Shown here piece after piece: positions 1 through 15,395 of a stretch of 64,000 nt of DNA. The notes beneath the pieces are model-generated. The model was given only the letters and a program-made list of their open reading frames with translations, was not told where the DNA came from and did not search any database. Positions within the stretch are counted from its first letter, which is position 1; every line of letters starts with the position of its first letter. Both the position numbers and the translations under genes were made by a program. Source of the stretch: Sphingobium arseniciresistens (GTDB lineage: Bacteria; Pseudomonadota; Alphaproteobacteria; Sphingomonadales; Sphingomonadaceae); assembly GCA_029167225.1 (NCBI GenBank), contig JARFNK010000004.1, positions 124,001 to 188,000 of the forward strand, given 5' to 3'.

Positions 1-191
1 GCCTTGGCCAGTCGGCGCGCGGCCAGATTGGGCACATATCCCAGTTCCGCGATCGCCGCCTGCACGGTCGCCACGGTGGCCGCGCTCGCCCGGCCGGCAT
101 CATTGATGACATTGGATACCGTCATGGCGGACACGCCGGCCCGTTCCGCGACCGCGCGGATCGTGACGCTATTCTGTCTTCTTCTCGCCAT
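1..191 (-). CDS. LacI-family transcriptional regulator, N-terminal part (cut by window edge)
   Basis: Only the first 63 codons lie in the window. The protein begins MARRRQNSVTIRAVAERAGV and continues into a typical LacI helix-turn-helix and hinge-proximal helix (AMTVSNVIND, then ELGYVPN, then AARRLAK). The ligand-binding core lies outside the window, so the inducer cannot be inferred. It is the last gene of the minus-strand sugar cluster, 87 bp beyond the GMC oxidoreductase stop, which makes it the likely local regulator. A 12-bp inverted repeat lies 25-69 bp upstream of its start, and a LacI-type palindrome lies before the cytochrome gene at 6984-6995. The family call is secure. The regulatory target is inferred from position. 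Confidence 0.85.
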   Translation of the reverse strand, partial: MARRRQNSVTIRAVAERAGVSAMTVSNVINDAGRASAATVATVQAAIAELGYVPNLAARRLAK

Positions 192-215
192 CAAGCCCGT
201 GCCCCCCTCCCGTCT

Positions 216-260
216 GATAGCGTGTTTCCCATGGGTTCGTAGCAGCGAAAACACGCTATC
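216..260. promoter_or_regulatory. 12-bp inverted repeat upstream of the lacI-type gene
   Basis: GATAGCGTGTTT at 216-227 is repeated perfectly inverted at 249-260, with 21 bp between the arms. It sits between the GMC oxidoreductase stop (279) and the regulator start (191). It could be a pair of operator half-sites for autoregulation or a transcript hairpin. There is no T-run next to either arm, so a classic intrinsic terminator is less likely. The arms are seen directly; the role is inferred. Confidence 0.5.
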
Positions 261-278
261 GCGCAGGCGTTGCGACTA

Positions 279-1961
279 TCAGATCCTCCCGGCTTTCAAT
301 CCTTTGACGGCATAATCCACGGCTCGGGCCGTCAGCGCCATGAACGTCAGCGATGGATTGACGCAGGAGACCGAGGCCATCTGTGCGCCATCGGTGACGA
401 ACAAATTGGCTGCATCATGCGCCTGCCCCCATTTGTTCAGCACGGATGCGCGGGGATCGGCGCCCATGCGCGCGCCGCCCATTTCATGGATTGCGTCGCC
501 CGGCACATGCTCCCTCACCTTGCTTTCCACATTCGTCAGGCCGGCGGCGCGCAGCATCTTTTCGCCTTCCTCACGGGCGTCGGCCATCATCCGCAGTTCA
601 TTGTCGCGGAAAGTGACGTTGAACCGCATGAGCGGAACACCGAAACGGTCGGTCTTGTCCGGGTTGAGCGCCACATAATTGTCCTCATAGGGCAGGCATT
701 CGCCAAAGGCGCCCATCTGGAACTTCCAACCCTCATAGCGACGCATCCCCGCCTTCATCGATGCGCCAAAGCCGACCGGCTTGGCGGGTTCGCGATAGGC
801 TGCACCCTGATAGCCATAGCCTCGCTTGAACCCGACATCATCGTCCTTGCCAATATTGCGGAAACGCGGGACATAGATGCCGCCGGGTCGGCGGCCATAT
901 TCGATATATTCTTCCATGCCGGGGATGTCGCCCTTCACATTGACCCGGAAAATATGGTCCATCACATAGCGCCCCAACGTGCCGCTGCTATCGAAATGGC
1001 TGCGGCCACCGCCCGGTAGACGCGAGTTCATCAGGATCTGCGTCGAGGCGAGCGCCGACGCGCACAGGAAGACGAGATCGGCGCTCACGGTTTCGGCTTG
1101 CCCGGTCTTGGCGTCGACGAAACGCACGCCCGTCACCCGTTTTGACGCAGCATCATAGTCGAGACTGGTGACGACCGCATCGGATCGCAGGGTCAGCCGT
1201 CCGGTCGCCCGCGCGGCCGGCAGCGTGACCGCCTGGGTCGAGAAATAGGCGCCGAAGGAGCAACCGTTGCTGCACTGGTTGCGCAGCTGGCATTTGGTGC
1301 GGTTCTGTTCCGGCTTGTCCTCGGTCATGTTGGACAGGCGGGCGTTGATCATCTTGCGGCCGGGGAATTGGGCTTCCAGCCGACCTTTCATCCATTTTTC
1401 CGCGATATTCATCGGCATCGGCGGCTGGAATTCGCTGTCCGGCAGATAGGGCAGCTTTTCGCGCGATCCCGACACGCCGATATATTTCTCGACATAGCTG
1501 TACCATGGAACCAGGTCGTCATAGCGGATCGGCCAATCGCCGCCGATCCCCTCCCGCTTGTTCGCCTCGAAGTCGGCTGGGCTCCAACGAAAGCTCCAGC
1601 GGCCCCAGATCAGCGACTTGCCCCCGACCGCGGCCGGACGGATCCAGTAGAATTTGCTGCCTTCGCCATAATCATAAGGGTTCAGCCGGTCATTATTGTA
1701 GAAGGCCTGGTTGCTGGGAGAGACATAGCCGTTCTGGGCAATGAAATAGTCGCTCTGCTTGAGCGGCGCAGGCATGATGTTGCGGGCGGGCACTTCATAG
1801 GCGGGCTTGCCGTCATAGGTATAGCCCTCGCCATGCTCGACCATGTGGCCGCGGTCCAGCATCAGTACGCGCAGGCCTTTTTCCGTCAGTTCCTTTGCGG
1901 CCCACCCGCCGCTGATGCCGGAACCGATGACGATCGCGTCGAACCTGTCGGTCGAAGCCAT
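279..1961 (-). CDS. GMC-family FAD oxidoreductase, probable glycoside/sugar dehydrogenase large subunit
   Basis: A 560-residue flavoprotein. It has an N-terminal Rossmann FAD site (VIGSGISGGWAAKEL, residues 11-25) and the C-terminal GMC domain with the catalytic pair His492 (HEMGGARMG) and Asn535 (CVNPSLT). Cys224, Cys230 and Cys234 form a C-x5-C-x3-C loop, resembling the loop that holds a [3Fe-4S] cluster in FAD-dependent glucose dehydrogenases. It has no signal peptide. Family members are exported together with a Tat-signal small subunit, here encoded at 2827-3396. Expected role: oxidation of a sugar hydroxyl (C3 in glucoside 3-dehydrogenases) in the periplasm, with electrons passing to cytochrome c. 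It starts 23 bp after the preceding TIM-barrel gene in the same operon. The exact substrate is not known. Confidence 0.88.
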   Translation of the reverse strand: MASTDRFDAIVIGSGISGGWAAKELTEKGLRVLMLDRGHMVEHGEGYTYDGKPAYEVPARNIMPAPLKQSDYFIAQNGYVSPSNQAFYNNDRLNPYDYGEGSKFYWIRPAAVGGKSLIWGRWSFRWSPADFEANKREGIGGDWPIRYDDLVPWYSYVEKYIGVSGSREKLPYLPDSEFQPPMPMNIAEKWMKGRLEAQFPGRKMINARLSNMTEDKPEQNRTKCQLRNQCSNGCSFGAYFSTQAVTLPAARATGRLTLRSDAVVTSLDYDAASKRVTGVRFVDAKTGQAETVSADLVFLCASALASTQILMNSRLPGGGRSHFDSSGTLGRYVMDHIFRVNVKGDIPGMEEYIEYGRRPGGIYVPRFRNIGKDDDVGFKRGYGYQGAAYREPAKPVGFGASMKAGMRRYEGWKFQMGAFGECLPYEDNYVALNPDKTDRFGVPLMRFNVTFRDNELRMMADAREEGEKMLRAAGLTNVESKVREHVPGDAIHEMGGARMGADPRASVLNKWGQAHDAANLFVTDGAQMASVSCVNPSLTFMALTARAVDYAVKGLKAGRI

Positions 1962-1984
1962 GATGATCCTCCCTTGGGAAATCG

Positions 1985-2830
1985 TCAGAAGCGCAGAGCG
2001 CGCAGCGTTTCGAAGCTCTTGCTGATATCGGGTATGTAGGGCGCTGGCGCCTGGTCATTCTCGACATAGAAATGCCGCACGCCGGCAAGCTGGTTCAGCT
2101 TGAAGATGCCCGCGAAGTCGATCGTGCCGCTGCCCACCGACGTCATGCTGCGATCGGCGCGCATATCCTTCACATGATAGGAGTAGATGCGACCGGCGAG
2201 GCTGCGGATCAGGGCCTGGGGATCTTCCCCCGCATGGACGGCCCAGTAGAGGTCGAGTTCGATCTTCACCAGCGCAGGATCACATCCCTTGACGAGTTGG
2301 TCGAACAGGCTGACGCCATCGGTTTTTACGGTGAATTCAAAGTCGTGATTATGATAGGCGAAGCCAAGACCGGCCGCCTTCAACCGTTCGCCAAAGCGGT
2401 TGATGTTGACCAGCGCCGCCTTCCAGGCCTCGGCATTGCGATGCTTGTCGACCATATAGGGCAGGACGACCGTATCCGCGCCCAGTGTCTTGGCCATCGT
2501 GACGCTGGCGTCGAAATTCTCCAGCAACGCCTCATAACCGATATGGAGGGACGGGCAGGACAGGCCCAACCGGTCCATCGTACTGCGGAGCAGCCCATGA
2601 TCCATCTGGTCATAGTTGCCACCGCCATATTCCACTTCGCGGTAGCCAACCCTGGCCACTTTCTCGAGGGTCGCGACTGGGTCTGCGGAGAAGAGATCCC
2701 GCAGGGTGTAAAGCTGCAGTCCGATGGTGCGGATTTTTCCGGTCGGCGCGGCGAATACCGCTGTGGGCTGGCTTGCGAGGGCGGCAAGGCCGCCGACGCC
2801 AAGAAGCATGGAACGACGGTTGATCATCAT
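1985..2830 (-). CDS. Tat-exported sugar isomerase/epimerase-like TIM-barrel protein (AP-endonuclease 2 fold)
   Basis: 281 residues. The N-terminus NRRSMLLGVGGLAALASQ is a twin-arginine signal with a hydrophobic stretch ending near AVFAA. The rest is a xylose-isomerase-like TIM barrel with likely divalent-metal and substrate residues in HNHDFEF, ELDLYWAVHAG, YHVKDM and VENDQ. Proteins of this family act as isomerases, epimerases or, in 3-keto-glycoside pathways, as lyases that eliminate the aglycone. Its start overlaps the stop of the small-subunit gene by 4 bp (ATGA), so it is translationally coupled. Export to the periplasm alongside a sugar dehydrogenase favours a 3-keto-sugar lyase or isomerase over a sugar-phosphate enzyme. 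The fold is sure and the reaction is inferred. Confidence 0.85.
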   Translation of the reverse strand: MMINRRSMLLGVGGLAALASQPTAVFAAPTGKIRTIGLQLYTLRDLFSADPVATLEKVARVGYREVEYGGGNYDQMDHGLLRSTMDRLGLSCPSLHIGYEALLENFDASVTMAKTLGADTVVLPYMVDKHRNAEAWKAALVNINRFGERLKAAGLGFAYHNHDFEFTVKTDGVSLFDQLVKGCDPALVKIELDLYWAVHAGEDPQALIRSLAGRIYSYHVKDMRADRSMTSVGSGTIDFAGIFKLNQLAGVRHFYVENDQAPAPYIPDISKSFETLRALRF

Positions 2831-3396
2831 GAGGAGTAGACCTTGTTGACCTGGGAGTAGGGGAAAGCGCCGTTATATTCGCCGGGGACCGGCAGATATT
2901 CGCGTTCCTGCGTGATGCCGATTTCCGACGTGTAGTATCCGACGATGACCATCTGCCGGAACATTTCGAAAAATCGTGGCCCATCGGGGATCTGGTTGTT
3001 CATCGCCAGGGTGAGCAGGGCATCCTGCTGCGCCGGCGTCGCCTTGACGGCGGGGATATCATGATCCTGCCAGCTGCGTGCATCGATCTCGGCCAGGCCG
3101 GTGACAATCGGCACGCGATCCTCCGGGACTGACCAGTCCGCCAACAGCTTTTCGATATAGGCGGGAACGCCGGCTTCGATCGCGCCGGGGGTGTCGGTGG
3201 CAGGAATGATCCGTTCGCAGAGCGCGGTCATCAAGGCCCGCTGATCCGGCGTGAACAGCTGGATGCTGGGCGCACCCTGATCAATTGCGGGGAGAGCGTC
3301 AGCGGGCACAAGACCTGCCGCCCGGGCGATCGGGGCGAAGAGCTGGGCACCGAACATGACGACCATGCCGGCCAGCGCATTTCTGCGATCCATCAT
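2827..3396 (-). CDS. Gluconate 2-dehydrogenase subunit 3-like protein (Tat-exported small subunit)
   Basis: 189 residues with an N-terminal signal (MDRRNALAGMVVMFGAQLF, then ARA-AG) resembling a twin-arginine leader. The family signature CERIIPATDTPGAIEAGV follows near residues 60-77. Subunit-3 proteins bind the GMC large subunit and carry it through the Tat system. Here the partner is the GMC protein at 279-1961, with one TIM-barrel gene between them. It overlaps neighbours by 4 bp on both sides, which indicates tight coupling with the DUF1080 gene before it and the TIM-barrel gene after it. Confidence 0.85.
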   Translation of the reverse strand: MMDRRNALAGMVVMFGAQLFAPIARAAGLVPADALPAIDQGAPSIQLFTPDQRALMTALCERIIPATDTPGAIEAGVPAYIEKLLADWSVPEDRVPIVTGLAEIDARSWQDHDIPAVKATPAQQDALLTLAMNNQIPDGPRFFEMFRQMVIVGYYTSEIGITQEREYLPVPGEYNGAFPYSQVNKVYSS

Positions 3397-4220
3397 TGTC
3401 CTGCCCCTTTCAAATCCTGGGCAATGGCCTCTCCGGGCAGCGGCCGGACCCAGATGTTGCGGAACGATACGGGACTGTCATGGTCCTGCAGCTGGATCGG
3501 AGCCTTGTCGCCATGCGCCCGATATTGCGCGACCTTGCGCCAGGCGGTGGTTCCCAGCATCGCCTGATGGTTCTGCACCAGCACGCCGTTCAGCATTACG
3601 GTGACATAGGCCGGGCGGGCGAGGCTGCCATCCGCGGCGAAGCGCGGCCTTTCAAAGACGATGTCGTAGCTTTGCCATTCGCCCGGCGGACGGGTGGGGT
3701 TCACCAGTGGCGGCTTCCACGCATAGACCGCGCCCGCCGTGCCATCCGCATAGGTGGCGTTCTGGTAGCTGTCGAGGATCTGCACCTCATAGCGCTGCAT
3801 GAACCAGATGCCGCTATTGCCCCGATCCTGGGAGCTTTTCTGCGCCGGGGCGGGGGAGCGAAATTCCAGGTGCAACTGTACGTCGCCAAATTCCTGCTTG
3901 GAGACAAGATTGTTTTCGCCGCCGCTCTTGGTACGCGGCGGGATGGTCATCACGCCCTTGTCGAGCGTCCATGGTGCGCGTTCGCCGCGCCAGGCATCCA
4001 GAGAACGACCATCGAACAGGACGATCGCGTCGGAGGGCGCGCCGCCGGGCTTTGTTGCTGGTGTAACCACTGTCGGCGCGGGCCGATCCGGGTCGTGGAC
4101 ATGCCAGCTGCCGCCGGGCAGGATCGGCGTGTCCCTGAAACCCGGCTTGTCCTGTGCATGGGCGAATGTGCCAAGCATGATGCCCGCTGCGCTCGCCACC
4201 CCGATGCGGATGCCCTTCAT
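3393..4220 (-). CDS. DUF1080 (3-keto-disaccharide hydrolase family) secreted protein
   Basis: 275 residues. A Sec-type signal peptide (MKGIRIGVASAAGIMLGTFA, cleavage after AHA) precedes a DUF1080 beta-sandwich: FDGRSLDAWRG near residue 70, then LHLEFRSP, GNSGIWFMQRYEVQILDS, and a C-terminal PVSFRNIWVRPL. Characterised members cleave 3-keto-glycosides after C3 oxidation. Its place directly before the small subunit and GMC dehydrogenase, with an ATGA overlap, fits that order of reactions in the periplasm. The family is secure; substrate unknown. Confidence 0.87.
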   Translation of the reverse strand: MKGIRIGVASAAGIMLGTFAHAQDKPGFRDTPILPGGSWHVHDPDRPAPTVVTPATKPGGAPSDAIVLFDGRSLDAWRGERAPWTLDKGVMTIPPRTKSGGENNLVSKQEFGDVQLHLEFRSPAPAQKSSQDRGNSGIWFMQRYEVQILDSYQNATYADGTAGAVYAWKPPLVNPTRPPGEWQSYDIVFERPRFAADGSLARPAYVTVMLNGVLVQNHQAMLGTTAWRKVAQYRAHGDKAPIQLQDHDSPVSFRNIWVRPLPGEAIAQDLKGAGQ

Positions 4221-4282
4221 CGCTTCTTCCTCTTCATGCGTTGAGGGCTCAGGCCCCTTCGCTTATACACCCCGTCCGCTCA

Positions 4283-5197
4283 CTACGCTTTATCGATGCC
4301 ACGATAAGCGGCGATCAGGCGGTCCTCGCCCTCGCGCCCGGCCAGCGCATTGCCATGCTCCATGCCGATCACGCCGGCATAATTGCGCGCGCGCAGCCAG
4401 CGAACGATATTGGCATAGTTGACTTCGCCCGTTCCCGGCTCCTTGCGGCCGGGATTGTCCCCGAACTGTATATAGCCGACCTCCGCCCAGCAGGCGTCGA
4501 GCGTCGGGATCAGGTTCCCCGACTGGATCTGCTCATGATAGAGGTCCGCCAAGATCTTCACGCCGGGGCTGTTCGCGCCCCGCGCCACCGCATAACCCTG
4601 CGCGATGGACTGCATGAACACGCCGGGATGGTTTGTACGGGTGTTGAGCGGCTCCATCACCAATGTCAGCCCGTGCGGCGCGACGATGTCGCCGGCACGG
4701 CGCATGCAGTCGATGATCCGGCCGGTCTGGATATCCTGCGGAACGCGGCGGTCCATGAAGCCGGTGACGACGGTCATGTGTCGAGCGTTGAGGCGCTTGG
4801 CGACCTCAATCGAGGTGCGGATGTCGGCCAGAAAGGCTTCCCGCTCGGCATCGTCATTGCTGCCTAGAAGGGGGCGGAAGTCCGCCCATTTCGGCATGCT
4901 GGCGACGAACACGCCCATGGTCATGCCGCGCTGGGAAAGCGCGCGGGCCATGGCGTCCTGCTGTTCGACCGGCCGGGTACGTGCTTCATTATCTTCCCAG
5001 GCGCGAAAGCCCTGGTCGGCCGCAAAGGCGATCTGGTTGAGCAGGTCGCCCCGACTGGCAAAGCTGCCCTCATGGGGCGCATAGCCGAGCGAGAAACGGG
5101 CCGCATTGGAGCTGCCCTTCCCGGTTGCGACGGAGAGGGCGGGGGTCGCCGTTGCGGCAAGCCCGGCAGCGATCATTGTTCTGCGTGAAAGATTCAT
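4283..5197 (-). CDS. Tat-exported hydroxypyruvate-isomerase-like TIM-barrel protein
   Basis: 304 residues from the start at 5197, which has a GGAGG ribosome-binding site 8 bp upstream. An in-frame start at 5350 lacks such a site and would hide the signal peptide. The N-terminus LSRRTMIAAGLAATATPAL is a twin-arginine leader. Hyi-type motifs follow: VVTGFMDRR, VMEPLNTRTNHPG, ILADLYHEQIQSGNL, QFGDNPGRKEPGTGE and IGMEHGN, which carry the expected metal-binding Glu, Asp, His and Glu. True hydroxypyruvate isomerase is cytoplasmic, so an exported version beside a sugar dehydrogenase is probably a keto-sugar lyase or isomerase. It lies 62 bp upstream of the DUF1080 gene. Confidence 0.83.
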   Translation of the reverse strand: MNLSRRTMIAAGLAATATPALSVATGKGSSNAARFSLGYAPHEGSFASRGDLLNQIAFAADQGFRAWEDNEARTRPVEQQDAMARALSQRGMTMGVFVASMPKWADFRPLLGSNDDAEREAFLADIRTSIEVAKRLNARHMTVVTGFMDRRVPQDIQTGRIIDCMRRAGDIVAPHGLTLVMEPLNTRTNHPGVFMQSIAQGYAVARGANSPGVKILADLYHEQIQSGNLIPTLDACWAEVGYIQFGDNPGRKEPGTGEVNYANIVRWLRARNYAGVIGMEHGNALAGREGEDRLIAAYRGIDKA

Positions 5198-5515
5198 AGG
5201 AAGACCTCCACTACATGTCCCACATCGCGGCTTGCAGGGCGGCTCGCCAAAGGTGGATTCCAGCATCCCGCCGAGTAGAGCGCTGCTTTGTGAATGGATG
5301 AACGGTCCGGCCGCGAACAAAGCGAGTGGACCGATCCACGCGGCCTTCATACGGCCCGCGATAGTCGCATGCCGTCATGCGCTTACAGACGCAGTGAGGG
5401 GCGCAAGAACGCGCTGCCTGTAAATCCGCGCCGGATGATGCCTGCCATGTCCGGTCCCTCTCGTCGCGTCCCGTCCTTTTTTCTGGATCGGGATCCTCTT
5501 TAAACGTCGTTGCGG
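5198..5515. other. 318-bp intergenic stretch within the sugar cluster
   Basis: It separates two minus-strand TIM-barrel genes. Apart from the GGAGG site next to 5197, no convincing gene, hairpin or known motif is seen in any frame. It probably holds a leader or second promoter for the downstream five-gene unit, but none can be pinpointed. Confidence 0.4.
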
Positions 5516-6580
5516 TCAGCTCAGCCCCAGCCAGCGCCGATTGTTGGCAGGATCGCCACCACCGGCAAAGTCGTCAAATGCTCGTTCAGGCCGGCGGATC
5601 ATGTGCGCCTCGATGAAGGGGGCGCCTTCGCGCGCGCCGTCTTCCGGATGCTTCAGGCAGCATTCCCATTCCAATACGGCCCAACCGTCATAGCCATATT
5701 GGGTCAATCGGGAAAATATGCCGGTGAAGTCGACCTGGCCGTCGCCGAGCGAACGGAAGCGGCCGGGGCGATCGACCCAATCGGCATAGCCGCCATAGAC
5801 GCCCGCGCGCCCGGTCGGGTTGAACTCCGCATCCTTGACATGAAACATCTTGATGCGGTCATGATAGATGTCGATGAACTGCAGATAGTCCATAGCCTGC
5901 AGCACGAAATGGCTGGGATCGTAGAGGATATTCGCGCGCGGATGGCCATCGACCGCATCCAGGAAGCGCTCGAAGGTAAGGCCGTCGTGCAGATCCTCGC
6001 CCGGATGCAGTTCGAAGCAGAGATCTACGCCCTGCTCTTCGAACGCGTCCAATATGGGGCGCCAGCGCCGGCCGAGTTCGGCAAAGGCCTCTTCCACCAA
6101 TCCGGCGGGGCGTTGCGGCCAGGGATAGAAGAATGGCCAGGCGAGCGCGCCAGAGAAGGTCGCATGGGCGGAAAGGCCGAGCCGCCGGCTCGCCTTCGCT
6201 GCCAGCTTCAACTGATCGACGGCCCAAGCCTGTCGCTCGGCGGGCCTGCCACGCAGCTCGGGCGGAGCGAAATTATCGAACGCCGCGTCATAGGCGGGGT
6301 GGACTGCAACCAGCTGCCCTTGCAAATGTGTTGAAAGCTCGGAAATCTCGACACCGGCCTCGCGGCAGCGTCCGGCGAGTTCATCGCAATAATCCTGGCT
6401 TTCCGCCGCGAGCGCCAGATCCATGCAGCGCGGGTCGTTGCTGGGCACCTGAATGCCCTTATAGCCTGCCTGGGCCATCCAGCGCGCAGCGTTGTCCAGC
6501 GTGTCGAACGGGGCGGAGTCGCCCATGAACTGCGCCAGGAAGATCGCCGGGCCGCGCATGGCGCCCTGCGCCGAGTTCAT
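5516..6580 (-). CDS. Sugar phosphate isomerase/epimerase-like TIM-barrel protein (cytoplasmic)
   Basis: 354 residues, with no signal peptide, unlike the other two TIM-barrel proteins of the cluster. Motifs of the xylose-isomerase-like fold include CFELHPGEDLHDG, ILYDPSHFVLQ, KMFHVKDAEF and AVLEWECCLKHPEDG. These give the metal-ligand Glu, Asp, His and Glu positions. It overlaps the cytochrome gene by 4 bp (start inside its stop). Likely a cytoplasmic isomerase, epimerase or lyase acting on the imported product of the periplasmic steps. The fold is clear and the reaction cannot be read from sequence. Confidence 0.83.
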   Translation of the reverse strand: MNSAQGAMRGPAIFLAQFMGDSAPFDTLDNAARWMAQAGYKGIQVPSNDPRCMDLALAAESQDYCDELAGRCREAGVEISELSTHLQGQLVAVHPAYDAAFDNFAPPELRGRPAERQAWAVDQLKLAAKASRRLGLSAHATFSGALAWPFFYPWPQRPAGLVEEAFAELGRRWRPILDAFEEQGVDLCFELHPGEDLHDGLTFERFLDAVDGHPRANILYDPSHFVLQAMDYLQFIDIYHDRIKMFHVKDAEFNPTGRAGVYGGYADWVDRPGRFRSLGDGQVDFTGIFSRLTQYGYDGWAVLEWECCLKHPEDGAREGAPFIEAHMIRRPERAFDDFAGGGDPANNRRWLGLS

Positions 6581-6939
6581 TTCAGGCTCTTGAGATAGGC
6601 GATGATCGCCGCGCGCTTGACAGGATCGGGCGTGCTGATGGGCATGCGGCTACCGGGAACCTTCTTGGTCGGCGATGCGAGATACTCGTCGAGAGCCTTG
6701 TCATCCAGGCGCAGCTTGGAAGCCTTGAGCGCCGGTGAATAGGCGAAGCCGGCAAGCGTGCCCGCCGTGCGTCCGGCGACGCCATACAGATTGGGGCCAA
6801 GGCCGCTCTTGCCATCCTTCTGAATGCTGTGACAGGCGCGGCAGGTGCCGAAGGCCGGCGGTGCGGTCTGCGCCTGACTTGGCGTAGCGGATATCATCAT
6901 CGTACCGATTGCAACCGCCACCAGGCTGAGGTTCGCCAT
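6577..6939 (-). CDS. Small c-type cytochrome (cytochrome c2-like)
   Basis: 120 residues from the start at 6939, preceded by GAGG 8 bp upstream. An in-frame start at 6984 would add 15 charged residues before the signal and is disfavoured. A Sec signal peptide (MANLSLVAVAIGTMMISATP, cleavage after SQA) is followed by the haem site C33-R-A-C36-H37, GPNLYGVAGR, and the distal Met in PGSRMPIS. It is a periplasmic electron carrier and the likely acceptor for the GMC dehydrogenase of the same cluster. A LacI-type palindrome lies 45-56 bp upstream of the start. Confidence 0.88.
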   Translation of the reverse strand: MANLSLVAVAIGTMMISATPSQAQTAPPAFGTCRACHSIQKDGKSGLGPNLYGVAGRTAGTLAGFAYSPALKASKLRLDDKALDEYLASPTKKVPGSRMPISTPDPVKRAAIIAYLKSLK

Positions 6940-6983
6940 TTTTTGCACCTCGACTCTCCGTTCCATTTGTCGTTCTAATATCA

Positions 6984-6995
6984 TTTACCGGTAAA
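6984..6995. promoter_or_regulatory. Probable LacI-family operator
   Basis: TTTACCGGTAAA is a perfect 12-bp palindrome with the central CG typical of LacI-family operators. It lies between the aldo/keto reductase stop (7055) and the cytochrome start (6939). The adjacent LacI-type gene at the window's left edge is the natural candidate to bind it. The palindrome is seen directly; the binding partner is inferred. Confidence 0.6.
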
Positions 6996-7054
6996 CTCCG
7001 GCAGATCAAGACGAAGATCGCGCCGAGCGGAAAACCAGCCGATCTCGCAAGAGG

Positions 7055-7951
7055 TCACGGCAGTCTTTCTCCCAGCGATGCCTCAAGCACCGCATACCAT
7101 TCGCTTCGGGTCCACTCGACCTTGAACGCATCCACGCTGCGCGCGATTCGCTCAGGGGACTGTGAGCCGACAATTGGAATGGGACGGGCGGGGTGCGCCA
7201 TGATCCAGGACAATGACGCGGCCGATGCGTCCACGCTGAACCGCGCGCCCTGCTCGGCAATCAGTGTCGCGGCGGGATGTTCCCCGGCAACCAGGCGACC
7301 ACCGCCCAGCGGCGACCATGCGAGCACCGCCATGTCGCGTGCCATCGCCTGATCGAGCGTGCCGTCGAACAGCGGCGCGGTGCGCAGCGCCGAAAATTCC
7401 GGCTGGGTGCTGACCAGCGGCAGCGAGAGGAAGCTTTGCAGCGCGGCCAGTTCATCGGTGCTGTAGTTGGAAACGCCGAGGGCGCGGACCTTGCCGCTGT
7501 CGACCATGGCGGTGAGCGATGCGGCGACTTCCTGCGGGTGGGTCAGGAAATCACGGCGATGGATCTGGTAGAGGTCGATCTGGTCGATGCCCATCCGGCT
7601 AAGCGAGGAATCAATGGCGCTGGCAAGGTAGGTCGTGCTGGAATCATAGGGAATGCCGGGCATGATGCCGCCCTTGGTGGCGATCACCATGCGATCGCGC
7701 AGCGCCGGGGCGTCGGCCAGCACGCGTCCGAACAGCGCTTCTGCCGATCCGAACCCCGCCGGTGTGTCGCAGCCATAGATATCCGCCGTGTCGAACAGGG
7801 TGATGCCTGCATCCAGTGCCGCCTCCACCTTATGCCGGGCATCGCCGACATCGTTGCCCGCAAGGCGCCACATGCCCCACGCGATCGGGAAAACAGAAAT
7901 TCCGCTCTTGCCGAGCGGACATGGTTGGGGGGATGGGCGCAGCGTCGTCAT
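7055..7951 (-). CDS. Aldo/keto reductase
   Basis: 298 residues, cytoplasmic. The catalytic tetrad of the family is complete: Asp54 and Tyr59 (FDTADIYG), Lys93 (ATKGG) and His131 (YQIHRRD). The C-terminal NADP-binding part includes PIVGSQSPERIARSVDA. The enzyme would reduce a keto or aldehyde sugar with NAD(P)H, a plausible last step to return a keto-sugar to a normal hexose. It is the first gene of the minus-strand cluster, 115 bp before the cytochrome gene. The family call is firm; the substrate is inferred from context. Confidence 0.87.
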   Translation of the reverse strand: MTTLRPSPQPCPLGKSGISVFPIAWGMWRLAGNDVGDARHKVEAALDAGITLFDTADIYGCDTPAGFGSAEALFGRVLADAPALRDRMVIATKGGIMPGIPYDSSTTYLASAIDSSLSRMGIDQIDLYQIHRRDFLTHPQEVAASLTAMVDSGKVRALGVSNYSTDELAALQSFLSLPLVSTQPEFSALRTAPLFDGTLDQAMARDMAVLAWSPLGGGRLVAGEHPAATLIAEQGARFSVDASAASLSWIMAHPARPIPIVGSQSPERIARSVDAFKVEWTRSEWYAVLEASLGERLP

Positions 7952-8234: not shown

Positions 8235-11021
8235 CTACAAGATGGGTGGTGCGCCATAGGGATCGGGCGCGCCGTCCAGTCGCACGTCGATCCGGTCGAG
8301 CAGGAAACCGGGATCGAGCGCATGGATTTTCAGGCTGTGCTTTCCCTTTGCCAGTTGCTGGATCGTGCTGCGCCGCTGCGCCATGTTGCTCAGCACATTG
8401 CGTTTCCATTCCTCACTGCGGCCATGGGTCTCGTAATCGAGGATCTGGATGGGGGCATCGTCGATCTGCACCCCGAGGCGCAGGCCGTTGGCCGATGTCA
8501 GCGGATGCGCCGGCAGGGCGATGATGCGCACCTCCGCGTCCGTCGTTCCCGTAGTTTCGAAATCGTAGCGGAGCGGCACAATCCCCTGGGTGCCCTTGCG
8601 CGAAGGCAGCGAAAGTTTCGAACGCAGCGCGGCCTGTCGCGATCCCAATCCCTCCACCCTTTCCCAGTCGCTGCTGGGGGAGGTCGGCATGACGGCCGTC
8701 AGAGAGATTGTCCGGTCGATCTCGACAGGAACGTCGCCCGTGGCTGCGCGGATGAATGCCCCGCCAATAGCCTTCGTCTTGCCTGCGCAGGAAAGGGCGC
8801 CGAAATTGACCGGTGACGTGCTGCCGTCATAGGTGAGGGCAATGCGCTGCTGATAGCCATTGGCCTGCTCCAGCCTGCCGCGCGTGGTGGTGAGTGCGAG
8901 TCCATGCTGGCCCGACAATTGCCATTCGGCTGGCTCGCCCCAGCTATGGATCGTCAGGAAATGGTGCCCCTTGCGTCCCTCGATGAAGTTCAGTTCGGAT
9001 GCATCCGCCACGCAACCCGGCTGCCGCGGCGCATCGGCCTTGGGGAAGGTCGGTCTGGCGAAGACGGGCAGCTCGCGCGGGGCCATGCTCATCATGCCCC
9101 TCCATTTGCCGCCATTCTGCGCGTTGTAGCGCGCCGTGTCGGCAATGATGCGCTCGTGCGCGGCCTCTGCCTGCTCCGTGAGCAGGTTCGCATTCGGCCA
9201 GCCCTGCCGCGCATAGAGCGCCGCGAGATCGAGCTTGAGATTGCGTTCGTTGAGACTGGCGGCCGCCCGAACCGGATAGAGGACCAGCTGGAAAAACGCG
9301 TCCGTGCGATCTGCGGGCACCTCCGCCGCCAGCGCCTCGGCGCTGGCTGAAAGGTCGGCATAGCGATCGATCCGCTGCTGTGCCTCGCGGCCGCCGGTGC
9401 GGATATAGTCGCTTATGGCGATCGGGCTGGTCGGCTCCACCGTGCTGAACCCCATGAATTCCGGCCGTCGCTCGAAGGCGAGGTCGTAATATTCGGTCAT
9501 GATGTCGGCGATCCTGGGCGCGAGGGCAGGGTCGAACTGCTGGCCCAGCCATTTTCTCAGATGGTTGCGTGCGGGCGGGCCGAACTGTTCATGGTCGAAG
9601 GCGAGATCGAGAAAATATTGGGTGAGATATTCGGCCGGCTTGATGTCGCCGACATTCAGCATCCAGATCTTGCGGGCCTTCATCTGCCATGCGCGATCCA
9701 TCTGTTCCCTGATCAGCGCTGGATGCGTCGTTGCCAGCCAGAGATAGTCGTGCGGCCGGCCCCAATAGGAGATATGATAGTATACGCCCGATCCGCCGCT
9801 GCGCGCCTGCTCCTGCGGCGTGGAGAGCTGGTTGATGTAGCCATAATTATCCTCTGGCCAGACCAGCGTGATATCATCGGGTACCTTCAGGCCAAGCCCA
9901 TAGAGATCGCGGACTTCCTTGTAGAGCGTCAGGGCCTGGGGAACCTGATCCGCCGGCTTGTTCTGCGCCTTTGCCAGAAGGTCGCGCTGGATGGCGATGG
10001 CTTCGCCCAGGGCATCGCGGGCGATCTCTGGCGTCCTCGCCCCTTCCATCTCTGAGTCATGCTTGCCGCGCAGGCCGACCGTATAGACATTCTCGAACGG
10101 CTTCACCTGCGTAACGCGGTCGCGCCAATATCGGATCATCGCCTCGCGATTGGTGAAGAAGTTGAAGTCGCCGTGGCGCTTCTCGTCCCATTCGCGCACA
10201 TTGTTCCGCATCATCGGCTCGGCATGGGACGTGCCGACGACGATCGCATAGTCTCGCGCGGTCTCGGCATTGCCGGCGATCTGGTAGAAGGGCTTGGTGA
10301 CGTCATGCATGGCGGGCCAGATCAGATTGGCCTTCAGGCGCCACATCAATTCGAAGATGCGGGCATAGGTTTTTGGCCCGATGTCGCCGGTTTCCGGCTC
10401 GAACGTCTTCGCAGCCCAGGGCTGCAAGCCCCAGTCCTCATCGTTGAGGAAGATCCCGCGATACTGCACGGAAGGCGTGGCGGACAGGCGATAGGCCCCG
10501 TCCACGACCAGCCGGCCGGTCCTGCGCGGACTGATATCAGCCCACCATTCCCAGGCGGAAACGCCCATCTCGCGCGTGAGGTCGACGGTGCCCCAGATCG
10601 CGCCGCGCATGTCCGATCCCGCGATCACTAGATAGTGTCGCGATGGCTGGCTGCGCGAGGGAAGCGATACGCGCATATAGCGCTCCCACTGGCCCTTGAG
10701 CGGCGCCAAGTCGAGGCCGGTGTCCTTGGCGACCGCTTCGATCAGCGGCGATCCCCGCTGTCCGATGACGATGCAGAGCGTCCCGCAATCCCGAAGGTCG
10801 GAGGACTGGCTCGGCGCGTTCCCCGTCAGCTTTAGAAGATCGCCGGCGAGCATGTTGCCCGCAATCGACAAAGGCCGGTTGCCGTCATGGAGGATGCGGG
10901 CAACCCGATGCCCGTCGAAAAGCAGCAGTCCTTCAGCATTGGCCGGGGCCGGAGCGAAGCCCAGAACAAGGACAGGCAGCAGGGCGCGCAGGAGCAGGAG
11001 CCCCGATTTCGATCGCTTCAT
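8235..11021 (-). CDS. Glycoside hydrolase family 115, probable xylan alpha-1,2-glucuronidase
   Basis: 928 residues with a Sec signal peptide (MKRSKSGLLLLRALLPVLVL, cleavage after ANA). The family core runs from LLLFDGHRVARI through GAIWGTVDLTREMGVSAWEW, VQYRGIFLNDEDWGLQPWA, NLIWPAMHDVTKPFY and WPEDNYGYINQL to WMLNVGDIKPAEYLTQYFLD. A C-terminal beta-domain follows (RVEGLG, EVRIIALPAHP). GH115 enzymes release (4-O-methyl-)glucuronic acid from xylan side chains, acting in the periplasm or outside. The length is usual for the family. It lies on the same strand upstream of the sugar-oxidation cluster, separated by the Gfo/Idh relic. An inverted repeat precedes it at 11097-11121. Confidence 0.9.
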   Translation of the reverse strand: MKRSKSGLLLLRALLPVLVLGFAPAPANAEGLLLFDGHRVARILHDGNRPLSIAGNMLAGDLLKLTGNAPSQSSDLRDCGTLCIVIGQRGSPLIEAVAKDTGLDLAPLKGQWERYMRVSLPSRSQPSRHYLVIAGSDMRGAIWGTVDLTREMGVSAWEWWADISPRRTGRLVVDGAYRLSATPSVQYRGIFLNDEDWGLQPWAAKTFEPETGDIGPKTYARIFELMWRLKANLIWPAMHDVTKPFYQIAGNAETARDYAIVVGTSHAEPMMRNNVREWDEKRHGDFNFFTNREAMIRYWRDRVTQVKPFENVYTVGLRGKHDSEMEGARTPEIARDALGEAIAIQRDLLAKAQNKPADQVPQALTLYKEVRDLYGLGLKVPDDITLVWPEDNYGYINQLSTPQEQARSGGSGVYYHISYWGRPHDYLWLATTHPALIREQMDRAWQMKARKIWMLNVGDIKPAEYLTQYFLDLAFDHEQFGPPARNHLRKWLGQQFDPALAPRIADIMTEYYDLAFERRPEFMGFSTVEPTSPIAISDYIRTGGREAQQRIDRYADLSASAEALAAEVPADRTDAFFQLVLYPVRAAASLNERNLKLDLAALYARQGWPNANLLTEQAEAAHERIIADTARYNAQNGGKWRGMMSMAPRELPVFARPTFPKADAPRQPGCVADASELNFIEGRKGHHFLTIHSWGEPAEWQLSGQHGLALTTTRGRLEQANGYQQRIALTYDGSTSPVNFGALSCAGKTKAIGGAFIRAATGDVPVEIDRTISLTAVMPTSPSSDWERVEGLGSRQAALRSKLSLPSRKGTQGIVPLRYDFETTGTTDAEVRIIALPAHPLTSANGLRLGVQIDDAPIQILDYETHGRSEEWKRNVLSNMAQRRSTIQQLAKGKHSLKIHALDPGFLLDRIDVRLDGAPDPYGAPPIL

Positions 11022-11379: not shown

Positions 11380-12609
11380 ATGACAATTCCAGCATCGCCA
11401 CATCCCACCCTGCATCGGCATGAATTCGTTTCATTGATTGCGGCTATCATGGCCGTGAACGCGCTGGGCGTTGACTTGATGCTGCCGGCATTGCCGGTGA
11501 TGGGGCGGGATCTGGGCATAGCGACCGCCAATGCCCGGCAATGGATCGTCACGGCCTATATTTTCGGCTTCGCGGTTGGCCAGCTCGTCTATGGACCGCT
11601 TGCCGATCGGTTCGGTCGCAAGCCCGTATTGCTTGCGACGCTTGCCGGCTTCGTCCTGGCAAGCGTTTTCGCGGCAAGCGCACAGACTTTTGCTGCGTTG
11701 ATAGGCGCGCGCATTCTGCAGGGCGCGATGTCGGCCTCCACGCGGGTTCTCTCCGTTGCGATCGTGCGCGACAGCTATTCGGGGCGGAGGATGGCGAAGA
11801 CCATGTCGCTGGCGCAGATGGTGTTCTTTCTGGTTCCCATCCTGGCGCCGACCCTGGGGCAGGGACTGCTGATGTTCGGTCCCTGGCGCTTCATCTTCTA
11901 CGCGCTGGCGGTTTTCGCAGCGACCATATGCGTCTGGTCGGCGCTGCGTCTGCCGGAAACCCTGCCGCGCGAAGCGCGAAGGGAAATATCGTTCATGACC
12001 TTGGCTGCCGCCTATCGGCTGACTCTCACCAACCGCTTTTCGATCGGTTATACGGTAGCCGGTGCACTGACATTTGGCGGGATCATCGCGTTCGTTTCGT
12101 CATCCGAGCAGGTCTTTGTCGACACCTTCCATCAGGGCGCGCGCTTCGCCCTGCTTTTTGGCCTTTGTGCGCTGGCCATGGGATTTGCATCCTTTGCCAA
12201 TAGTCGCCTGGTGGAGCGACTTGGTACGCGCCTCATCTCACATAGCAGCATTTTCGGCCTCGTGGGCCTTTCGGTCATTCATCTGCTGATTGCGCGCAGC
12301 GGATCGGAGACGCTGTGGACCTATGTGATTATCCAGTCGCTGAGCCTGGCATGCATCGGGCTATGCGGTGCAAATTTCGGTGCGATGGCGATGGCGCCGG
12401 TAGGGCATGTCGCGGGAACCGCCTCCTCGGTTCAGGGCTTCATCAGCAGTCTTGGCGCCGTGGCCGTCGGGTCAGCAATCGGCCAATCCTATGACGGTAC
12501 GACCTATCCGCTCGCCGTCGGCTATCTGTCCATTGGCCTGGGAGCCTTGGCCATCATCTCTCTAGTGGAGGGTGGGCGGCTGTTTCGAGGACGGCTGTTG
12601 CAGGATTGA
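11380..12609 (+). CDS. MFS transporter, Bcr/CflA-like drug/metabolite exporter
   Basis: 409 residues with 12 predicted hydrophobic segments. The cytoplasmic loop after helix 2 carries the MFS motif [14 protein letters not shown] (near residues 68-81). Motif C-like residues follow in helix 5 ([15 protein letters not shown]). The N-terminus ([20 protein letters not shown]) matches Bcr/CflA-type exporters. It is a proton-driven inner-membrane exporter. The substrate cannot be read from sequence. It is followed after about 50-90 bp by the glutaminase gene on the same strand, possibly co-transcribed. Confidence 0.87.
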
Positions 12610-12697
12610 TGGCGGATCCGGCGGGCCAAGTCTTAGAAGAGGGGGGGCATGGTGGATCATGGGCGATGGCGCGCTTCATCGCGGTGCCTGGCATGAT

Positions 12698-13648
12698 ATG
12701 TCGACGCTTATGGACCTTGCCCGAATCGTCGAAACCATCGTTGCGGAAATGGAAGAGCGTACCGAGCGCGGTGCGGTGGCGACCTATATCCCTGAACTGG
12801 CCAAGGTCGATCCAGCCCGTTTCGGCATCGCCATCGTTACCGCCGAGGGGCAGGTCGTCGCAGGCGGCGACGCGGAGATAGGGTTTTCCATCCAGTCGAT
12901 CTCAAAGGTCTTCGCCCTCACTCTGGCTCTTGGCAAGATCGGCGACCAGCTCTGGAAACGTGTCGGACGCGAGCCGTCGGGCAATGCCTTCAACTCCATC
13001 GTCCAGCTGGAGCATGAAGCCGGCATTCCCCGCAATCCCTTCATCAACGCCGGCGCCATCGTCGTCACCGACGTCAACCTGGCCGGGCATCAACCCCGAG
13101 AGATGATTGGCGAACTGTTGCGGTTCCTGCGCTTCCTGAGCGGCGACGAGAGCATCTCCATCGACGAGACCGTGGCCCGATCGGAAGCGTTGACGGGCTT
13201 TCGCAACCAGGCGCTCGCCAACTATATGCGCTCCTTCGGCAATCTGCGGGGAGAGGTCGAGCAGGTGCTGGGCACCTATGTCCATCAGTGCGCGGTCGAG
13301 ATGAGCTGCCTCCAGCTTGCCCTTGCCGGACGGTTCCTGATGCTCGGCGGCCGGCATCCCGATGGCGGACGGGTCGTGTCCGAACGTCGCGCCCGACGGA
13401 TCAACGCGCTGATGCTGACCTGCGGCCATTATGATGCGTCGGGCGACTTCGCCTATCGCGTCGGCATTCCGGGGAAATCGGGCGTGGGCGGTGGCATTCT
13501 GGCCGTGGTGCCGGGGCGTGCCTCCATTGCAGTCTGGTCGCCCGGACTCAACGAGACGGGCAATTCCATGCTGGGGACGATCGCGCTGGAACGGCTGGCC
13601 GAGGCGACCGGCTGGTCGGTGTTCAGCGCACATCTTCCCGAAGAATGA
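12698..13648 (+). CDS. glsA: Glutaminase
   Basis: 316 residues from the start at 12698. Serine-dependent glutaminase: the active-site Ser67-x-x-Lys70 lies in FSIQSISK, followed by [32 protein letters not shown] and the C-terminal [19 protein letters not shown]. It hydrolyses glutamine to glutamate and ammonia in the cytoplasm. The protein from 12698 aligns with the length of E. coli GlsB-type enzymes. An in-frame ATG at 12659, behind a G-rich possible ribosome-binding site, would add 13 residues and is the alternative start. Confidence 0.9.
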
Positions 13649-13677
13649 CGTGGCGCTGAGTCCGGCCTTCGATCGAT

Positions 13678-13723
13678 GGCGCCAACGAAGGAGTGGGTGT
13701 ATCCAGCCACCTTCGTTGGCGCC
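13678..13723. terminator. Hairpin between convergent glutaminase and SDR genes
   Basis: GGCGCCAACGAAGG (13678-13691) pairs perfectly with CCTTCGTTGGCGCC (13710-13723) across an 18-nt loop. It sits between two convergent stops (13648 and 13732). Neither side has a long T-run, so it may work as a weak bidirectional terminator or an mRNA 3-prime stabiliser. Confidence 0.55.
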
Positions 13724-13731
13724 GCGAATGG

Positions 13732-14532
13732 TTATGCCGCAGCGTTCTCTCGATAGCGGGGAGCGACTGCGCTTTTCGACAGGTTCGGTGCCATGGCCAG
13801 ACGAGCCTGCTGCATGCTGGTCCATTGCCCTTCGTCATGGAGCGGCGGGATCGTCACGGTTTCGCCCAGATCGAAGCCGAGAAGCGCCGCGTCGACCAAG
13901 TCATCGACTTCCATCACGAAGCCCTCGGGAAATGCGTCGACATCCTTGCCGGCGCGCGCCCAGATCTCCGTTCGTGTGGCGCCGGGCAGCACCACTTGAA
14001 CGTAGACGCCCTTGTCCTTCAGTTGCGCGGCCATGGACTGGCTGAGATTGAGGACATAGGCCTTGGTGCCGCTGTAGATGCCATCGAACATCTCGGGTGC
14101 CAGTGCCAGCACTGAGGCGATGTTGACGATTGCGCCCTTTTCGGCCGCCACGAAGGCCTTGCCCGCGGCCGACGCCAACCGGGTCGGCGCGGTCACGTTG
14201 AGCGCGATGATCTGCGCCAGCGCGACGGGGCCGTTCTCCAATATGCCGCCGTTCAGCGACATGCCGGCATTGTTGATGAGGTGCGTGATGTCGCCGGCCG
14301 CAAGGCGGTTTTCGATATTCGTCAGCTCTTCGTCATTGGTCAGGTCCGCGACGATGATCTCGATCGCCACGCCGGTCTCTGCGCGCAGACGCTCGGCCAG
14401 TTGCTCCATGCGCGCGCCATTGCGGGCGACGAGGACCAGGTCGAGACCCCGCCTTGCGAGCCGATCCGCATAGGTCGCGCCGATCCCTGTGGACGCGCCA
14501 GTGATGAGTGCGGTGCCGGCGGTTTTACTCAT
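13732..14532 (-). CDS. Short-chain dehydrogenase/reductase
   Basis: 266 residues, cytoplasmic. Classical SDR motifs are complete: nucleotide site TGASTGIG at residues 11-18, NNAG at 87-90, catalytic Ser140 and Tyr153-x-x-x-Lys157. It reduces or oxidises an unknown alcohol/carbonyl with NAD(P)(H). It is divergent from the HxlR regulator at 14603, and the two share the palindrome at 14568-14603, so it is very probably this regulator's target. Confidence 0.9.
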   Translation of the reverse strand: MSKTAGTALITGASTGIGATYADRLARRGLDLVLVARNGARMEQLAERLRAETGVAIEIIVADLTNDEELTNIENRLAAGDITHLINNAGMSLNGGILENGPVALAQIIALNVTAPTRLASAAGKAFVAAEKGAIVNIASVLALAPEMFDGIYSGTKAYVLNLSQSMAAQLKDKGVYVQVVLPGATRTEIWARAGKDVDAFPEGFVMEVDDLVDAALLGFDLGETVTIPPLHDEGQWTSMQQARLAMAPNLSKSAVAPRYRENAAA

Positions 14533-14567
14533 TGGATGTTCCTTTCCATTCGGTCGGAAGAAGTAAC

Positions 14568-15049: not shown

Positions 15050-15073
15050 ACAAGGCCGGCATGTCATCCATGG

Positions 15074-15301: not shown

Positions 15302-15309
15302 CTACTGGT

Positions 15310-15339: not shown

Positions 15340-15395
15340 CCCTGATTGGCGCAACGCCGTGCGCTATTTGTGCAATTCTGAGCGGACGCGTTACG

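Follow-up and report, generated by a model that had tools for sequence, protein, structure and literature searches.

Near its left end, the 64,000-nucleotide stretch of DNA analysed here (the window) carries eight minus-strand genes whose positions and order are as first described, all of them intact open frames and each matching a Pfam family above its cut-off (Table 1). The TIM1 gene sits between those for the GMC dehydrogenase and its subunit 3. The LacI-family gene of the preliminary description is also real, with an intact open frame (C55:123154-124254; seen in L005) that matches Pfam LacI and Peripla_BP_3; because this frame runs left to C55:123154, only its N-terminal part lies inside the window. 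It starts at window base 254, while the start used by relatives maps to base 191, and the N-terminal 63-70 residues share 81-94% identity with six type-B relatives and 68% with L100.

Table 1. Features at the left end of the window, in window positions.
Feature	Position	Strand	Basis or remark
LacI-family regulator, N-terminal part	1..254	-	Pfam LacI and Peripla_BP_3; downstream of GMC
GMC oxidoreductase, putative glycoside 3-dehydrogenase catalytic subunit	279..1961	-	Pfam GMC_oxred_C/N
TIM1, Tat-exported TIM barrel, putative 3-keto-beta-glycoside 1,2-lyase (beta-eliminase)	1985..2830	-	
Gluconate_2-dh3 subunit (subunit 3), Tat-like leader, probable GMC escort	2827..3396	-	PF13618, 119.9 bits
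DUF1080 (3keto-disac_hyd) protein, Sec-type leader, putative 3-keto-glycoside lyase/hydrolase	3393..4220	-	PF06439
TIM2, Tat-exported hydroxypyruvate isomerase/epimerase-type TIM barrel	4283..5197	-	Open frame to 5350
MFS transporter remnant, codons 8-61 of the L067 gene, one in-frame stop	5270..5428	-	tblastn
TIM3, leaderless TIM barrel, putative 2-hydroxy-3-keto-glucal hydratase	5516..6580	-	8ro4 match
Class I cytochrome c with leader, putative GMC electron acceptor	6577..6984	-	Pfam Cytochrom_C
Aldo/keto reductase (AKR), apparently leaderless, not a conserved neighbour of the cassette	7055..7951	-	PF00248
GH115 alpha-glucuronidase-family protein	8235..11021	-	PF15979, 421 bits

By sequence, the solved structures nearest to the GMC protein are the large subunit of fructose dehydrogenase (7w2j) and an FAD glucose dehydrogenase (6a2u). 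Its Cys224, Cys230 and Cys234 are kept in 80/80 sequences (the window and 79 relatives) and align with cysteines of fructose dehydrogenase; we take these three to be the iron-sulphur cluster ligands of cytochrome-linked GMC dehydrogenases, whose cysteine pattern the GMC/subunit-3 pair shows as judged from this alignment. The catalytic subunit has no Tat leader and the nearby Gluconate_2-dh3 protein carries a Tat-like one, the latter being the probable escort subunit of GMC. In the cytochrome c, CXXCH and Met114 are found in every scored sequence (78 or 79).

Leaders were scored in orthologs from 80 sphingomonad loci with a home-made Tat rule (RR plus a hydrophobic stretch) rather than SignalP. 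The rule was passed by 79/79 TIM1, 78/78 TIM2 and 80/80 subunit 3 sequences, by none of the 77 TIM3 and 79 GMC sequences, and also by 9/80 DUF1080 proteins and 7/78 cytochromes. A separate test for a hydrophobic N-terminus was positive for 80/80 DUF1080 proteins and 77/78 cytochromes; since all 79 GMC sequences (with their FAD-binding start) and 6/77 TIM3 sequences also pass, this test is not specific, and the DUF1080 leader was judged from its sequence too (MKGIRIGVASAAGIMLGTFAHAQ). The Tat leaders earlier assigned to two TIM barrels, TIM1 and TIM2, and the Sec-type leader assigned to the DUF1080 protein are thereby upheld. Together with the GMC cysteines and the cytochrome residues, the leaders also sustain, as a prediction, the earlier proposal that a GMC/subunit-3 dehydrogenase carries out the oxidation in the periplasm and has a cytochrome of its own.

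The proposed comparison of gene neighbourhoods across sphingomonads was carried out on the same 80 loci, of which 72 have full flanks; they were fetched through DUF1080, on which all counts are conditional. GMC, subunit 3 and TIM1 accompany DUF1080 in 72/72 full-flank loci, a grouping that exceeds chance, and the cytochrome c gene is found in 71/72, as are the TIM3 gene, a Gfo/Idh/MocA reductase (Gfo) and an MFS transporter, the last two being absent from the window locus. TIM2 is missing from two of the 72, and S. paeninsulae has a TIM2 relative that belongs to no such cassette. DUF1080 is not always an ortholog across loci: five fetched loci (L053, L054, L055, L060 and L061) hold a GMC-TIM1-SU3-TIM2-CYT-TIM3 block with no DUF1080 between subunit 3 and TIM2, and the DUF1080 nearby has only 46-49% identity; L059 is alike and also lacks TIM2.

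TIM1 is related in both sequence and fold to AL1, BT1 and AtOGE. Its closest fold matches are 8tcd/8tcr/8tct and 3obe, and its best sequence match is AtOGE (8bvk), whose H132, H134, D163, H189 and E233 align with TIM1 H160, H162, D193, H219 and E257. These five are active-site residues in AtOGE (metal ligands and catalytic His), and each is kept in at least 79 of 80 TIM1 sequences. TIM1 resembles solved 3-keto-beta-glucopyranoside 1,2-lyases and AtOGE, and is a putative lyase. Hydratases and eliminases of this fold can overlap, LgdB2 having both activities (PMC7676230), so TIM1 might have both too. The DUF1080 protein scores 151.2 bits against PF06439 (curated cut-off 26.8) and matches 4qhz at 199 bits. 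Periplasmic bond breaking, by TIM1, DUF1080 or both, stands as a prediction from the leaders and the lyase likeness of TIM1.

The preliminary description had the TIM barrels cleave 3-keto-glycosides, which holds for TIM1 at most. TIM3 matches 8ro4, a "2-hydroxy-3-keto-glucal hydratase" that is presumably AtHYD, at 619.7 bits over residues 8-353 of 354, and this near-full-length match makes the leaderless TIM3 a putative hydratase of cytoplasmic type. TIM2 is likewise a real gene, with its start corrected from 5350 to probably 5197 (MNLSRR..., with GGAGG just upstream). The lyase-type His-x-His site is missing from it, and its Glu-Asp-Gln-Glu set is of isomerase type; on these grounds we rejected a lyase role for it. 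Among the matches listed, the solved proteins closest to it are epimerases and hydroxypyruvate-isomerase-like proteins; it falls below the equivalog cut-off for hydroxypyruvate isomerase (NCBIfam TIGR03234, 124.3 against 353.45 bits). By these features, TIM2 is classed as an exported isomerase/epimerase-type barrel. A match to 6wn6, which we take to be YcjR, a 3-keto-D-glucoside 4-epimerase, spans residues 160-280 only (36 bits, E 4.7e-8), and 6wn6 was not among the 50 TIM2 matches listed in a second comparison.

We tentatively suggest that TIM2 epimerises or isomerises 3-keto-sugars in the periplasm, for instance as a C4 epimerase turning 3-keto-galactosides into 3-keto-glucosides. It would then let one gluco-specific lyase, hydratase and reductase serve both lactose-type and glucose-type glycosides, and a C4 epimerase would explain the fate of 3-keto-galactose in a Caulobacter-type pathway, which the authors of the Caulobacter work left open (PMC9007349). 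TIM2 might instead be a periplasmic hydratase, elimination and hydration being finished outside so that only the 3-keto-sugar enters. Its Tat-like leader in every ortholog scored fits this, as does its continued pairing with DUF1080 in L047, L050 and Catenovulum, which lack other parts of the cassette, but TIM3 is a clear hydratase present in nearly all loci and the nearest listed relatives of TIM2 are of isomerase and epimerase kinds, which makes a hydratase role quite improbable.

No intact transporter gene is present in the window locus. A tblastn search of the whole window recovered the MFS remnant at 46% over 54 amino acids (E 3e-5). With L067 as the sole query, it scores 40.4 bits, and none of 1000 dinucleotide-shuffled versions of the spacer exceeded 25.4. 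Type-B relatives have an intact MFS gene at this position, and the 51 extra TIM2 codons between 5197 and 5350 overlap the remnant. The best other match in the genome to that transporter reaches 31% over part of its length. Similarly, no Gfo/Idh/MocA match was found in the window, and the nearest in the genome is a paralog of 54% on contig C26, in a second related locus that has both Gfo and MFS genes. By homology, the dehydrogenase, eliminase and hydratase genes of an oxidise-eliminate-hydrate-reduce operon are thus together in the window locus and the reductase is absent.

With MFS and Gfo lost, whether the window cassette works is in doubt. It could be a decaying pathway, its exported part lacking full use or merely harvesting respiratory electrons while releasing aglycones. 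The stop-bearing remnant and the 31% best other match to the transporter, together with a Gfo paralog found only elsewhere, are consistent with decay; yet the eight genes and the LacI frame are intact, the residues checked in TIM1, TIM2, GMC and the cytochrome are kept, and the steps that are missing could come from the second locus; we regard decay as unlikely. The window locus amounts to a natural deletion, having lost its transporter and lacking the usual type of reductase, which makes dependence on the second locus testable.

The preliminary description had instead proposed a self-contained cassette in which the exported TIM barrels all cleave 3-keto-glycosides and the adjoining AKR reduces the imported keto-sugar. 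The AKR and cytochrome genes share a strand, AKR being 70 bases upstream, in the place where type-B relatives carry a divergent Gfo gene; AKRs reduce carbonyls, other aldo/keto reductases of 27-34% identity occur in the 10-kb flanks of 14/80 loci, and the plasmid cassette of S. parapaucimobilis has two annotated in its vicinity. However, an AKR ortholog (at least 50% identity) adjoins the cassette in 0/72 relative loci, against 71/72 for Gfo, so the AKR is a poor candidate for the usual reductase and this part of the proposal is not borne out. Of 248 other genomes of the family, sampled irrespective of cassette presence, 84 have AKR homologs (E of 1e-60 or lower, identity no higher than 66%). 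Those in G025, G039 and G149 are not neighbours of the cassette or of its TIM2-DUF1080 pair, being over 100 kb distant or on a different contig. With TIM2 of isomerase type and no intact transporter at the locus, a self-contained cassette is, in our view, a distinctly improbable reading.

We take LacB and LacC of Caulobacter crescentus to be the cytochrome and subunit 3, respectively. Compared by description, the Caulobacter lac locus (lacABC with the DUF1080 gene CCNA_01705) matches the window cassette (PMC9007349), which differs in lacking the transporter and reductase and in having AKR and GH115 genes alongside. The Agrobacterium tumefaciens operon encoding GlycDH, the O-glycoside beta-eliminase AtOGE (8bvk), the putative hydratase AtHYD and a Gfo reductase matches in part, through TIM1 and TIM3; in the portion of the source consulted, a Tat-signal protein is named for a Rhizobium GlycDH enzyme, and DUF1080, a third TIM barrel and a cytochrome do not figure in the operon description (PMC10628242). 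Unlike TIM1, AtOGE does not look exported, since no more than about 6 residues fit ahead of its barrel. In the Bacteroidota, one run on Hymenobacter volaticus plasmid NZ_CP095062.1 holds GMC (47%), subunit 3 (27%), TIM3 (67%), TIM1 (40%), DUF1080 (48%), TIM2 (26%) and a cytochrome c with no blastp match to that of the window at 1e-4; it differs in having a nucleoside-permease MFS gene, Gfo and a fourth TIM barrel. Other Bacteroidota systems, those of the TIM1-like lyases AL1/BT1 and BT2156-BT2160, rely on NAD-type Gfo/Idh/MocA dehydrogenases, not on GMC and cytochrome. In Bacteroides thetaiotaomicron, BT2158 is described as a periplasmic glycoside 3-dehydrogenase (PMC11300592) and BT2157 a DUF1080 3-ketotrehalose hydrolase (PMC9007349). 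The lgdA-lgdB1-lgdB2-lgdC levoglucosan pathway of Bacillus smithii also runs through oxidation, elimination, hydration and reduction, with two annotated sugar phosphate isomerases and a Gfo/Idh/MocA reductase, but its dehydrogenase is NAD-linked, and the sections consulted describe no export, DUF1080 or cytochrome (PMC7676230). The earlier suggestion of an undescribed variant consequently fails for the core, which is nearly invariant in the 72 sphingomonad loci and recurs in the Hymenobacter set and the Caulobacter description. The window locus belongs to a known kind, in reduced and rearranged form, and lies beside a GH115 gene; the conserved, isomerase/epimerase-type TIM2 is part of an otherwise mostly ordinary find.

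Taken as a whole, these genes are best explained as encoding a 3-keto-glycoside pathway of the oxidise-eliminate-hydrate-reduce kind, a reading we consider likely. The GMC dehydrogenase, carried to the periplasm by its Tat-signal subunit, would oxidise the glycoside at C3, its electrons passing probably through its own iron-sulphur cluster to the encoded cytochrome c and on to the respiratory chain. Beta-elimination in the periplasm would then cut the 3-keto-glycoside into an aglycone or other sugar and a 2-hydroxy-3-keto-glycal, TIM1 probably acting on beta-glycosides and DUF1080 on other, perhaps alpha-, glycosides; TIM2 would probably alter the configuration or keto-group position of an intermediate, for example at C4. 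In relatives, the MFS transporter would import the sugar product, TIM3 would hydrate the glycal to a 3-keto-hexose and the Gfo/Idh/MocA reductase would return a hexose. The window locus would rely on genes elsewhere, most simply the C26 locus, the alternatives being replacement by the neighbouring AKR or partial decay. Such a pathway, an alternative to glycoside hydrolases, would strip many aglycones with one enzyme set and feed electrons to respiration as they come off.

The GH115 gene adjoining the cassette on the same strand, the only GH115 match in the genome, is a possible hint to the substrate. GH115 might free a uronic acid from glucuronoxylan fragments, the cassette handling that acid or the trimmed oligosaccharide. 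GH115 is rare (18/249 family genomes, 17 over the cut-off), and one of the 72 relatives (L062) has a GH115 gene of at least 50% identity roughly 2.5 kb upstream of its cytochrome gene; a GH43 gene separates the two, and an arabinofuranosidase-like gene follows farther out. A glucuronoxylan substrate nevertheless seems unlikely, as GH115 is not near the cassette in the other 71 relatives and the window and L062 cases may share one history; in G005 and G290, GH115 lies about 1 Mb and 50 kb, respectively, from the cassette.

All eight minus-strand genes of the preliminary description were recovered, each in the family to which it had been assigned (Pfam). The stretch corresponds to C55:124001-188000, on contig C55 of a 6.6 Mb draft genome, and the run is longer than the eight genes themselves.

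Cassette genes and adjoining features in the window
Feature	Coordinates	Strand	Remark	Basis
GMC dehydrogenase (GMC)	279-1961	minus		Pfam
TIM1, putative lyase	1985-2830	minus		Pfam
Subunit 3, Gluconate_2-dh3 (SU3)	2827-3396	minus		Pfam
DUF1080 protein	3393-4220	minus		Pfam
TIM2, isomerase/epimerase type	4283-5197	minus		Pfam
TIM3, putative hydratase	5516-6580	minus		Pfam
Cytochrome c (CYT)	6577-6984	minus		Pfam
Aldo/keto reductase (AKR)	7055-7951	minus		Pfam
GH115 gene	8235-11021		run extends upstream of the eight genes	Pfam
LacI-family gene	frame from base 254, past left end		downstream side of run	open frame, Pfam

Further to the right (11380-25270), a family scan of seven frames, one of them without a family, revealed genes for an MFS transporter, a glutaminase, a short-chain dehydrogenase, two TonB-dependent receptors and a DUF218 protein. 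To the left of the window (fetched locus L005, 1-16700), mostly plus-strand genes resembling, by eye, those for monooxygenases, ring-hydroxylating dioxygenases, decarboxylases, aldehyde dehydrogenases, CoA ligases and CoA transferases form an apparent cluster for the breakdown of aromatic compounds or terpenoids.

The neighbourhood is conserved in sphingomonads. Eighty sphingomonad-type loci were fetched with the DUF1080 protein (the best 80 of 405), on which all gene-content counts are conditional; 72 were counted, and eight were omitted because their flanks were too short. Cluster counts that drew on a further set of loci were set aside, since some of its contigs, judging by their length, are already represented among the 80. 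Genes were scored as present at 40-60% identity or more (set by gene) over half the query. GMC, subunit 3 and TIM1 were found in 72/72 full-flank loci, TIM2 in 70, TIM3, cytochrome c, a Gfo/Idh/MocA reductase (Gfo) and an MFS transporter in 71 each, LacI in 61 and GH115 in one. The commonest order (48/72) is MFS(Nuc_H_symport)-TIM3-Gfo-CYT-TIM2-DUF1080-SU3-TIM1-GMC, with a divergent LacI gene in 38 of the 48, and two further loci have the MFS-first order without TIM2. In type B (21/72), a divergent Gfo gene is followed by CYT-TIM3-MFS-TIM2-DUF1080-SU3-TIM1-GMC, with LacI after GMC in all but one (20 of 21); the one locus left over, L065, comes from a MAG and lacks the upstream half. The type-B order also occurs in the S. 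paucimobilis group, which is placed elsewhere in a quick GMC tree, so type B is not one clade in that tree. We also observed a small protein (c15) after LacI in 12/72 loci, for example at 15083-15535 of the Sphingobium lactosutens locus L062 and in other type-B loci; it has no match in the window, whose left end falls inside LacI.

The suggestion that the cassette is an undescribed variant does not hold for its core, which is already known: the same gene set is found in the 72 sphingomonad loci and in Hymenobacter. A literature search covering open-licence papers, which does not prove absence from print, returned no description of the sphingomonad set. The Hymenobacter volaticus cassette, on a plasmid (L230; NZ_CP095062.1), carries this gene set in another phylum and adds a fourth TIM barrel, whose leader, judged by eye, is of the Tat type. 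Catenovulum adriaticum (L233; NZ_CP109966.1) has a smaller set, comprising a TIM2-like gene (41%), a PVC-type heme protein, DUF1080, GMC and subunit 3, with TonB-receptor, sulfatase and GH43 genes on its flanks; no further TIM barrel or Gfo is present among the annotated neighbours shown. Published systems include a four-step operon of A. tumefaciens with AtOGE, a putative hydratase and Gfo (PMC10628242), and a levoglucosan version of the pathway (PMC7676230). For the Caulobacter-type pathway, the authors leave the fate of 3-keto-galactose open (PMC9007349). BT2158 is termed a periplasmic glycoside 3-dehydrogenase in PMC11300592, and deletion of BT2157 or BT2158 left growth on raffinose-family sugars unimpaired according to PMC11501099, which indicates that such clusters can be redundant. 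Given the published operons and the Hymenobacter and Catenovulum sets, the cassette belongs to an already known kind of system.

Within this conserved background, the gene order of the window cassette is that of type B. In the quick tree, its GMC clusters with eleven type-B loci and L065, 12 rows in all (SH-aLRT 99). All that is left of the MFS gene, which type-B relatives carry between TIM3 and TIM2, is a remnant of 54 codons that includes an in-frame stop (46% identity; E 3e-5 when the entire window was searched). The remnant was recovered again by a whole-genome search and scored 40.4 bits, compared with a maximum of 25.4 among 1000 shuffles. Where MFS-to-window alignments extend into the TIM2 leader, identity is low (26-34%), and the similarity is probably hydrophobicity only. 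The next-best genome match to the MFS of the type-B relative L067 reached 31% over partial length, and the sole close Gfo in the genome, 54% identical to the L067 copy, lies on another contig, C26. Considering the type-B order, the MFS remnant and the restriction of a close Gfo to C26, the window locus is most readily interpreted as a derived and reduced version. It represents a natural case of a cassette with its transporter lost and the usual kind of reductase absent, and merits specialist attention. C26 carries a second 3-keto-glycoside-type locus (C26:130000-162639; L007, L210), with TIM3 (69%), the 54% Gfo, a TIM1-like barrel (29%), GMC (46%), an MFS protein, subunit 3 and two DUF1080 genes; by eye, its TIM1-like barrel has an RR leader, and LacI-like and TonB-receptor-like genes are present.

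The proposal that oxidation and bond breaking take place in the periplasm is well supported, as a prediction, by the partition of leaders across orthologs. Using a home-made rule (RR plus a hydrophobic stretch; 77-80 loci per gene out of 80), we found Tat-like leaders in TIM1 (79/79), TIM2 (78/78) and subunit 3 (80/80) and in none of the TIM3 (0/77) or GMC (0/79) orthologs. A hydrophobic N-terminus is present in DUF1080 (80/80), and also in GMC (79/79) and TIM3 (6/77), so this looser test is unspecific. The Hymenobacter cassette shows the same partition by eye. Since subunit 3 has a Tat-like leader and GMC has none, GMC would travel out with subunit 3. TIM3 hydration and the final reduction are predicted to be cytoplasmic, and with oxidation and cleavage outside, the compound passing the inner membrane would probably be the glycal.

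The preliminary description was right in outline and wrong on two points, the usual reductase and the sharing of one job by the barrels. AKR is outside the conserved set: as a general rule, its role as the pathway's usual reductase was rejected, as an ortholog occurs in 0/72 loci, whereas Gfo occurs in 71/72. AKR homologs (E 1e-60 or better, identity at most 66%) were found in 84/248 other family genomes, a sample chosen independently of the cassette. In genomes G025, G039 and G149, the homolog is on another contig or separated from the cassette by >100 kb (for G149, the reference point is a TIM2-DUF1080 pair). By contrast, other aldo/keto reductases (27-34% identity) lie inside the 10-kb flanks of 14/80 loci. 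AKR may have taken over the reduction in the window strain.

As for the barrels, TIM3 was rejected as a cleaving enzyme because it matches a hydratase and lacks a leader. TIM2 appears unlikely to cleave. Conservation was scored over 79 TIM1, 68 TIM2 and 77 TIM3 relatives, and the structure alignments included 22 relatives for TIM1 and 18 for TIM2. The predicted TIM2 model is of no more than moderate quality (mean pLDDT 73.4; residues 186-194 <50). TIM2 matches occur in 151/385 genomes of the class (E 0.001), with >40% identity only in the window's genome, G005 and G025 among the matches listed. Other cassette genes were absent from the stretches taken around the next four genomes' matches (L172-L175, 35-38%) and the paralog on contig C59 of the window's genome. 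Of the plasmid hits, six (H1, H2, H4, H5, H28 and H29) were inspected, and the H1 and H5 records carry no annotation. A TIM2 relative on an S. paeninsulae plasmid (H29) sits amid aromatic-degradation genes without a cassette, a setting that argues against placing every TIM2 relative in the pathway. In two loci the set is smaller: G025 (L047) has TIM2-DUF1080-SU3-TIM1-GMC but neither TIM3 nor cytochrome, and G149 (L050) has only a TIM2-DUF1080 pair. This suggests that TIM2 and DUF1080 work together. TIM2 is a conserved, predicted exported protein of unassigned role that merits specialist attention.

GH115, present in 18/249 family genomes (17 above the cut-off), adjoins the cassette in the window. 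In S. lactosutens (L062), it lies ~2.5 kb upstream of the cytochrome gene, with GH43 and an arabinofuranosidase-like gene. This gives a hint, and no more, of a xylan-related substrate, since there are two GH115 cases only, perhaps with one shared history.

A class-wide GMC search also returned G434, with GMC (62%) and subunit 3 (45%) and the other cassette genes absent within 19.5 kb, and G468, with GMC (47%), subunit 3 (28%) and, some 7-8 kb off, Gfo (54%) and TIM3 (72%). A complete Sphingomonas-type cassette was observed in an assembly titled Bacillus sp. 2B10 (L083; RPSH01000008.1); its GMC falls among Sphingomonas rows of the tree, and the assembly is probably mislabelled or contaminated.
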